Source of the DNA: a virus
Direction: 5' to 3' (one strand)
Virus record (IMG/VR): IMGVR_UViG_3300027754_003430
Span: 1-20,319 of that record
DNA length: 20,319 nt
Numbering within the stretch: the first letter of the stretch is position 1; each line of letters starts with the position of its first letter. Positions 12,804 to 15,137 of the stretch are shown piece after piece. A program made the translations under genes and the position numbers. The notes under the pieces are model-generated. The model worked only from the letters and a program-made list of their open reading frames with translations. It did not search any database and was not told the origin of the DNA.

Positions 12804-12977
12804 TTATGTATCGTTGTTTTTCTGAGGATACTTTTGATAATAAGAGTCTTCGATATTCTCTCCGAAGAAATCGACATCAAGTTCGTTCAGTTCCTTGACA
12901 AGACGATAGCCAAAATAGGAAAGGATTCCTACGACTGCTATTCCTGCAACTCCAGCAACGACTTTCTTATTATCCAT
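12804..12977 (-). CDS. Single-pass membrane protein (57 aa)
   Basis: A 57-residue frame starting MDNKKVVAGVAGIAVVGILSYFGYR, i.e. one N-terminal membrane helix (about 5-24), then an acidic tail (NELDVDFFGENIED). The start overlaps the end of the peroxiredoxin gene by eight bases, with only a weak ribosome site, so reinitiation is likely. The stop lies just before the terminator. Function unknown. Confidence 0.72.
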   Translation of the reverse strand: MDNKKVVAGVAGIAVVGILSYFGYRLVKELNELDVDFFGENIEDSYYQKYPQKNNDT

Positions 12978-13557
12978 TTTCTTTTAACCAGTTTAAGATG
13001 TTTTCTGGAGCAGTTTCACCATAAGGATCGACTGGGCAATTATCTTCTGCGCCTGGTTCGATGAACCACTTCTCGATCTTACCGTTATTAACGACACATG
13101 CGTAACGCCATGAGCGTTCACCAAAACCGAGATTATCCTTATGAACTAGCATACCCATCTTACGAGTGAACTTACCTGAACCGTCAGGAATTACCTTGAC
13201 TTTCTTCACCTTCTGTGCTTTCGCCCATGCATTCATCACAAACGCATCGTTGACCGAAACACAATAGATGTCCTTAATTCCGAGAGCCTTGAATTCAGCA
13301 AACTTCTCTTCGAAACCAGGAAGTTGATATGTCGAACACGTTGGAGTGAATGCACCAGGAAGGGAGAAAAGAACCACGCGTTTACCTGCGAACAGATCCC
13401 ACGTGGTGACATCTTCCCAGCGATATGGATTGTCACCGCCAATCAAGTCATCTCTAACACGAGTTTTAAAAGTTACACTTGGAACAAGAGTTTTCAGTTC
13501 ATCACCTACATTCTCATCAATATCCCAAAACCTTTTAATCTTAATACGTTGTACCAT
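12970..13557 (-). CDS. Prx5-type peroxiredoxin
   Basis: A 195-residue thiol peroxidase that reduces hydrogen peroxide and alkyl hydroperoxides. PGAFTPTCS holds the peroxidatic Cys74, with the T-x-x-C arrangement of active peroxiredoxins; LPGFEEKFAEFKALGI and CVSVNDAFVMNAW follow as in the Prx5 (peroxiredoxin/redoxin) group. The conserved arginine is likely in SWRYACVV. Three further cysteines are present, so a resolving cysteine cannot be assigned; glutathione or thioredoxin may do this job. Family members of about 160 residues are usual, so the N terminus is extended by about 25 residues. AGGAG lies before the ATG. It could protect infected cells from oxidative stress (inference). Confidence 0.92.
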   Translation of the reverse strand: MVQRIKIKRFWDIDENVGDELKTLVPSVTFKTRVRDDLIGGDNPYRWEDVTTWDLFAGKRVVLFSLPGAFTPTCSTYQLPGFEEKFAEFKALGIKDIYCVSVNDAFVMNAWAKAQKVKKVKVIPDGSGKFTRKMGMLVHKDNLGFGERSWRYACVVNNGKIEKWFIEPGAEDNCPVDPYGETAPENILNWLKENG

Positions 13558-13566
13558 AATTTACTC

Positions 13567-13716
13567 CTACCAATGATGAATTGCATTTGCAATCAAAAAG
13601 ATGTTTGCTATGACGGCTTGTACGATGAAGAGAGTTCGGATCAAAGCGACTCTATCAGACTCGCGATCACAAGGACTTGCTTTTTCACCTAAAGCTTTTG
13701 CCCAAATACGCCACAT
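13567..13716 (-). CDS. Small membrane protein (49 aa)
   Basis: A 49-residue frame: an amphipathic N terminus (MWRIWAKALGEKASPCDRES), then one membrane helix (about 27-46). GGAG lies six bases before the ATG. It ends about ten bases before the peroxiredoxin start and shares its ribosome-site region (TAG-GAG). Small proteins with a W-x-x-W/F-A-K-A-L-G-E-K opening occur, as I recall, in other T4-like aquatic phages; this is unchecked. Function unknown. Confidence 0.75.
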   Translation of the reverse strand: MWRIWAKALGEKASPCDRESDRVALIRTLFIVQAVIANIFLIANAIHHW

Positions 13717-13737
13717 AACTATCTCCATGAATAATGT

Positions 13738-13795
13738 GAAGCGACAAACCTATTGCTGGTTGGGCAGGAGTACCACTCCCTAGATTTGTCGCTTC
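13738..13795 (-). ncRNA. Candidate structured leader RNA (three-way junction)
   Basis: A long imperfect inverted repeat: an 11-bp perfect arm pair (13738-13748 with 13785-13795), one C/A mismatch, then three more pairs (13750-13752 with 13781-13783). Inside are a 5-bp hairpin (GGAGT-ACC-ACTCC, 13767-13779) and a weaker 3-bp one (13754-13766), so the whole folds as a three-way junction. It lies between tRNA-Asn and the 49-codon gene, 22 bases before its ATG. There is no T-run, so it is not a simple terminator. It could be an RNA processing site, a leader that controls the peroxiredoxin operon, or a small RNA. I match it to no known class. Confidence 0.5.
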
Positions 13796-13888
13796 TTCGG
13801 TGGTTCAGCAGTTCGGGTTCTAGTCGTTAGTGACCCTCATAGTGTGCCTTAAATCAAGAGATGCATCTCCATCATCTCCCACTCGAAT
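13796..13888. other. Non-coding stretch between tRNA-Asn and the folded leader
   Basis: No gene of useful length. It contains a 12-base perfect palindrome GAGATGCATCTC (13858-13869) and, on the minus strand, two tiny frames with nearby ribosome-like sites (an 8-codon one starting MMEM and a 6-codon MRVTND after AAGGC). These could be leader peptides, but tiny frames arise by chance. With 13717-13795 it forms the longest gene-free region of the window, 172 bases. Confidence 0.4.
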
Positions 13889-13963
13889 TGGCTCCCCGAG
13901 ATGGGTTCGAACCACCGGCCAGGTGATTAACAGTCACCTGCTCTACCACTGAGCTATCGGGGA
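13889..13963 (-). tRNA. tRNA-Asn (anticodon GUU)
   Basis: A full cloverleaf on the minus strand: acceptor TCCCCGA / TCGGGGA, D arm GCTC-GAGC, anticodon stem GGTGA / TCACC with loop CTGTTAA, T arm GGTGG-TTCGAAC-CCATC. The discriminator is G and CCA is encoded. U1-A72 and G73 match bacterial tRNA-Asn. It lies inside an operon between the 63-codon gene and the folded leader. Confidence 0.95.
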
Positions 13964-14591: not shown

Positions 14592-15137
14592 CTAAATTAG
14601 AGAAGTATATTCACCGTGTAAACCTTTAATATGTGCATAATGATACATTGCATTTTGCTCTAACGGTGTCTTCTGATAATACGTAATATCAAATCGTGTA
14701 AGATCTGATAACGTCATATTAGATTTATGCTTCTCATAAGGATTACCTTCATGGTTTCCTTGATTAACATTTGTAGGCCATGCAATAATAATATTACGAG
14801 AACAATATGTCAAACACTCTAAAGTATCAATAGCTTCACTCAGATAAAGATGTTCGAGCACATCGAAACAAGTAATCAAATCATAAATTTTATTATCTTG
14901 TTTAGTAAACTCTTGAATCTCCATCTTATGAAGAATATGATATTTATCTTGTAATTTGTATGCTGACCAGTACTTTTCAGTAGGCTCAACTGCTTCGAGT
15001 ACAGCACGAGGAGCTGCTCGCTTGAACATATCACTATATGAACCAGAACCACATCCTACATCTAAGATATAGTTCGGCGCAATCTTACTAATATGGTTTT
15101 CTAGTGTGTTATTAAACACTCCGATTGACCAAGGCAT
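14592..15137 (-). CDS. SAM-dependent methyltransferase (class I)
   Basis: A 181-residue Rossmann-fold methyltransferase. Motif I is ILDVGCGSG (24-32), followed by AVEPTEKYW (ribose-binding acidic residue region) and DLITCFDVLEHL (motif IV-like). The C-terminal part is poorly typed, so the target (small molecule, sugar, protein or nucleic acid) cannot be told. AAGGA lies six bases before the ATG. It sits between tRNA-Lys and tRNA-Thr. Base composition is lower in GC than its neighbours (about 33% in one line counted by eye, against about 43% in the clamp loader) and it uses many TTA and ATA codons, which suggests a separate origin. Confidence 0.87.
   Translation of the reverse strand: MPWSIGVFNNTLENHISKIAPNYILDVGCGSGSYSDMFKRAAPRAVLEAVEPTEKYWSAYKLQDKYHILHKMEIQEFTKQDNKIYDLITCFDVLEHLYLSEAIDTLECLTYCSRNIIIAWPTNVNQGNHEGNPYEKHKSNMTLSDLTRFDITYYQKTPLEQNAMYHYAHIKGLHGEYTSLI

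Follow-up and report, generated by a model that had tools for sequence, protein, structure and literature searches.

Phage noncoding RNAs near tRNA genes have been described in several forms. GOLLD and ROOL occur near tRNA islands, and their functions are poorly known; GOLLD is often longer than 800 nt, and both are represented by Rfam profiles (PMC12286853). In phage T4, the stable RNAs rnaD and rnaC lie directly 3' of the last tRNA of the array, and they are late transcripts, detected by Northern blotting, of unknown function (PMC9697503). The manA RNA (RF01745) has been described in potential 5' untranslated regions (UTRs) (PMC2864571) and is classed in Rfam as cis-regulatory; it has long been listed as a candidate riboswitch, and the question of its function dates back to 2010.

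Here we analyzed a 20,319-nt stretch of viral DNA (the window; positions 1 to 20,319 of IMG/VR virus record IMGVR_UViG_3300027754_003430). A preliminary description had reported a stem enclosing two small hairpins at 13738-13795, in a 172-base gap downstream of tRNA-Asn, and its coordinates, arms, and gap length proved correct: 172 nt separate tRNA-Asn (13889-13963) from the ATG at 13716. The tRNA-Asn, 49-codon, and peroxiredoxin genes all run in the same direction, with the minus strand as the sense strand. The reported element makes up only the 3' half of the conserved RNA, which is longer and extends back to tRNA-Asn. The whole RNA occupies 13738-13887 on the minus strand, is approximately 150 nt long, and consists of two modules (domains 1 and 2; Table 1), with its 5' end adjoining tRNA-Asn. 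We rejected a coding reading of the gap because indels among relatives are not multiples of three (in L210, the P3 loop has lost or lacks 8 nt relative to the others), and the gap is thus noncoding. ARAGORN and Rfam identified the RNA stretch itself as neither tRNA nor tmRNA, and a DNA similarity search of phage and plasmid records with the gap and domain 1 gave no meaningful match. Elsewhere in the window, a methyltransferase-like gene (14592-15137), which weakly matches a phrog of tRNA methyltransferases, lies between tRNA-Thr and tRNA-Lys.

Table 1. Features of the RNA and its surroundings in the window
Feature	Position	Strand	Remark
tRNA-Asn (GUU)	13889..13963	-	immediately 5' of the RNA
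Domain 1, three-way junction	13796..13887	-	covariation, model R1
Domain 1 P1	13887-13884 and 13882-13879 with 13803-13796	-	
Domain 1 P2 hairpin	within 13878-13851	-	
Domain 1 P3	GGCA 13848-13845 with UGCU 13810-13807; GGGU 13836-13833 with ACCC 13818-13815	-	
Domain 1 conserved sequences	AAGGCACACUAUGAGGG and CUGCUGAACC	-	
Domain 2 (element first reported)	13738..13795	-	covariation, R2 match
Domain 2 closing stem	13795-13781 with 13752-13738	-	15 pairs including one U.G
Domain 2 hairpin GGGAGU-GGU-ACUCCU	13780-13766	-	
Domain 2 GCCCAACCAGCAA	13765-13753	-	possible 2-bp hairpin
GGAG ahead of 49-codon gene	13726-13723	-	putative ribosome-binding site
49-codon gene, phrog_1679, cyanophage family	13567..13716	-	downstream of the RNA
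Peroxiredoxin gene	12970..13557	-	PF08534, phrog_2281

The arms at 13738-13748 and 13785-13795 form the only perfect inverted repeat in the window of at least 11 bp with a spacer of at most 60. As at least one such repeat arose in 26% of dinucleotide shuffles, the length of the arms does not by itself exceed what chance produces. The folding energy is beyond chance: the z score is -4.75 for the minus strand and -3.80 for the plus strand, and none of 200 shuffles equaled it on either strand. When the window copy was folded by energy on its own, the three-way junction was not chosen on the minus strand; the L262 relative and the L226-type manA core did fold in this way. Covariation settles the reality of the domain 2 structure. 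Across six distinct window-type sequences, 99.4% of cells pair and both sides change in four pairs (closing-stem columns 7, 9, 10, and 11), and neither the paired percentage nor the covariation score was reached in any of 500 shuffles. The mismatch that had been placed between the 11 arm pairs and three further pairs turns out to be a U.G pair on the minus strand, giving 15 contiguous closing pairs. A GGU/ACC loop pairing, invariant in sequence, is possible within domain 2. The element has no hairpin followed by a T-run and no terminator-like match, in agreement with the earlier view that it is not a plain terminator. The bare stem pattern GCGACAAA...TTTGTCGC also hit, among the matches listed, unrelated contigs, and it was not used.

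Rfam searches at gathering and relaxed thresholds returned only the tRNA and chance matches. The RF01745 model gave no match at its gathering threshold (55.2 bits), and a search of 301 bases relaxed to E<=5 gave none either. A covariance model built from manA central junctions only, with no window-type sequences in its training set (R2), matched the window at 13744-13790 with 28.6 bits (E of 1e-5 in 263 kb and of 6e-8 in 1.6 kb), and its matches among 35 sources, including T4 and other phages, were confined to window-type loci. Domain 2 thereby contains, as located by R2, the manA central junction with its GUGGU hairpin and AACCA loop. The divergent manA of cyanophage S-SSM7 was missed by R2, so domain 2 is akin to the particular manA subfamily that these uncultured phages carry; a blastn search of reference phages with sister-phage manA DNA returned nothing. 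By inspection, the GUGACUGAAUAA/UAAGG segment and the outer pseudoknot of manA are absent from 13729-13888, where domain 1 is found instead. The window RNA is not a full member of the manA family. Judging from the match in sequence and structure, we take domain 2 to be a shortened relative of the manA central junction, which outside domain 1-containing RNAs was seen solely as part of full manA RNAs.

L002 and L003, fetched through a peroxiredoxin search, keep the window stretch at 92% identity and carry a 158-amino-acid outer-membrane-like open reading frame (ORF) between tRNA-Asn and the RNA. Because 568 to 610 bp, including this ORF, separate the two in the seven L002-type loci, the RNA is not always beside a tRNA. 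With a pattern taken from the shared core, we found another eight loci of the window type along with many manA RNAs, and the domain 1 pattern added L262, where both domains stand ahead of a different, unrelated gene; in all window-type loci, both domains lie upstream of a small protein gene. In L011 to L013, an Rfam manA RNA (64 to 66 bits) occupies this slot, immediately preceding the same small gene and upstream of peroxiredoxin as well. The near identity of the manA core and domain 2, together with this alternation at one locus, suggests module recombination; domain 2 and manA may also share an ancestor, with the remaining parts of manA since lost. The manA copies found here fit the published 5' UTR view only in part: in nine contigs (L216, L222, L231, L232, L234, L235, L239, L240, and L242), manA is located 5 nt downstream of tRNA-Met and 14 to 15 nt upstream of tRNA-Ala with no protein gene adjoining, and in S-SSM7 it abuts tRNA-Gly. 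Two other structured elements were seen among these contigs. A tRNA-like RNA with a 7-bp acceptor stem and a T-arm, recognized by neither ARAGORN nor the Rfam tRNA model, follows tRNA-Asn in L012 (1918-2003) and L011 (408-486). A module of the form GAUCUGGGACACG..GACUAAGAUCC..GGCUGGUACGCAGGGG, present in three IMG/VR contigs, immediately precedes manA in one phage (L013, 2556-2645) and domain 1 in others (for example, L267, 3456-3545).

Domain 1 is an undescribed tRNA-array motif that is outside Rfam and supported by covariation. A scan of IMG/VR with AAGGCACACUAUGAGGG, its 17-nt core, returned 36 contigs; the invariance of the core is due in part to its use as the probe, and the CUGCUGAACC half, absent from the probe, and the closing stem were retained in 33 of the 36 matches. 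Among 20 distinct sequences from uncultured phages, both sides change in five of seven P1 pairs (26 double-change cells), and the two outermost P1 pairs are formed in a minority; the P2 hairpin is maintained although its sequence has been rewritten. None of 500 shuffles and no slid version paired as well, counted on the structure of Table 1 (RNAalifold pairs the P3 core otherwise). Model R1, for which the window was a training sequence, matched it at 13796-13885 with 89.9 bits. It found a single copy in each of eight positive records and no match in seven reference cyanophages or in the manA-bearing contigs. Domain 1 had no match in Rfam, and we found no description of a similar RNA in the literature. 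Nine exact 17-mer matches in prokaryotic genomes were dismissed as chance because all lacked the second half of the motif.

Twenty-two contigs carry domain 1 without domain 2, and 19 of them have tRNA-Leu(UAG) upstream, at 5 to 7 nt in 16 cases, with tRNA-Leu(CAA) 4 to 302 nt downstream in all but one of the 19; many of these contigs are close relatives, so the counts do not represent independent events. Both modules behave as tRNA-array units. Other modules were observed 3' of domain 1. In L263, L274, L275, and L284, a short element resembling an H-type pseudoknot, ACUGCGCCGCCCGUAUGCAGU..CGGGC, follows closely and shows a single compensatory change (ACAGC/GCUGU in place of ACUGC/GCAGU or the reverse); L264 and L272 have a junction-like module with GCCAGC(A/U)AU, faintly resembling the ACCAGCAAU of domain 2. 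L267 (2911-3165) and L265 (4079-4336) carry a permuted tmRNA (RF04321, 91 to 93 bits) ahead of their domain 1 copy; this copy sits in a stretch poor in genes and apparently rich in RNAs.

The preliminary claim of a probably functional, unassigned structured RNA is upheld, since the check it had proposed for compensatory changes in the stems found them in both domains; its interpretation as a whole is partly supported. With a conserved RNA after a tRNA, domain 1 in arrays, and a manA-like core, the locus resembles an array-borne noncoding RNA more closely than it does a peroxiredoxin switch. Starting from what was directly observed (covarying conserved structure in both domains, proximity to tRNA genes, the manA-core match, and alternation with manA), we favor, with a probability of about 55%, a two-module noncoding RNA of about 150 nt that is cotranscribed with the array, excised, stable, and trans-acting. 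The RNA at 13738-13887 would be transcribed together with the tRNA array, and cutting of the precursor would probably release it along with tRNA-Asn; the freed RNA might then persist as a stable small RNA and act in trans during infection. Against this reading, the two domains precede a small protein gene at every window-type locus, as expected of a leader, the L002-type RNAs are set apart from tRNA-Asn, and domain 2 was found separate from domain 1 only within full manA RNAs.

A peroxiredoxin leader, as proposed earlier, is only one possibility, because the L262 RNA precedes another gene. A riboswitch-like or protein-binding leader of the 49-codon and peroxiredoxin genes would agree with the 11 nt between the end of the domain 2 stem and the GGAG, with the true manA in the same slot of L011 to L013, and with the constant placement of window-type copies ahead of a small gene. 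However, the gene in L262 is unrelated, domain 1 alone and manA occur flanked by tRNA genes and lack a gene to control, and the ribosome-binding site lies outside any stem, with no terminator. Peroxiredoxin regulation as the main role is not supported, given L262, the array copies, and the L002-type loci; the spacing makes a cis role possible, and since the window RNA also sits at a leader position, cis regulation, while unlikely, keeps an appreciable share of the weight.

The junctions could instead protect the tRNA precursor on its 3' side and the downstream mRNA at its 5' end, or direct where nucleases cut between tRNA and mRNA. Such a role would suit both the very stable 15-bp stem and the position of the RNA, with the last tRNA on one side and the mRNA on the other. 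Yet both domains contain long conserved unpaired sequences, exceeding the needs of a simple barrier, and domain 1 also occurs mid-array, a few bases from its flanking tRNAs, making a processing or stability element improbable. That the central junction alone is left of manA, with the Rfam model unmatched even at relaxed thresholds, would be consistent with a decaying remnant with no present function, but covarying stems and loops conserved among relatives, and the separate conserved domain 1 attached, leave this already disfavored reading with very little probability.

Beyond the favored array-borne, trans-acting RNA, we tentatively consider that domain 1 might be the founder of a new class of tRNA-array RNAs of large phages that recombines with interchangeable 3' modules (the manA core, the pseudoknot, and others), and that manA in these phages might be array-borne rather than a gene leader. 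What our analysis adds is a previously undescribed RNA motif from uncultured phages, supported by covariation and linked to manA. Because several manA copies sit between tRNA genes without a gene to regulate, whether manA is a riboswitch or trans-acting is directly testable.

Compared with known systems, domain 2 has in common with the manA of sister phages the sequence GGGAGUGGUACUCC-UGC(C/U)CAACCAGC-A, the layout of closing stem and hairpin, the genomic slot, and the GUGGU and ACCA loops. In contrast to manA, the window RNA lacks the 5' hairpin, GUGACUGAAUAA, UAAGG, the outer pseudoknot, and the GGUA..AAUCC segments, is not matched by the Rfam manA model, and carries domain 1 instead. GOLLD and ROOL are likewise phage noncoding RNAs near tRNAs but are much larger, and neither has an Rfam match in the window RNA. 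The T4 region (L297) gave no match to R1 or R2; rnaC and rnaD of T4 (the stable RNAs of species 1 and 2) resemble the window RNA in position, lying 3' of the last tRNA of the array, and are likewise small and structured.
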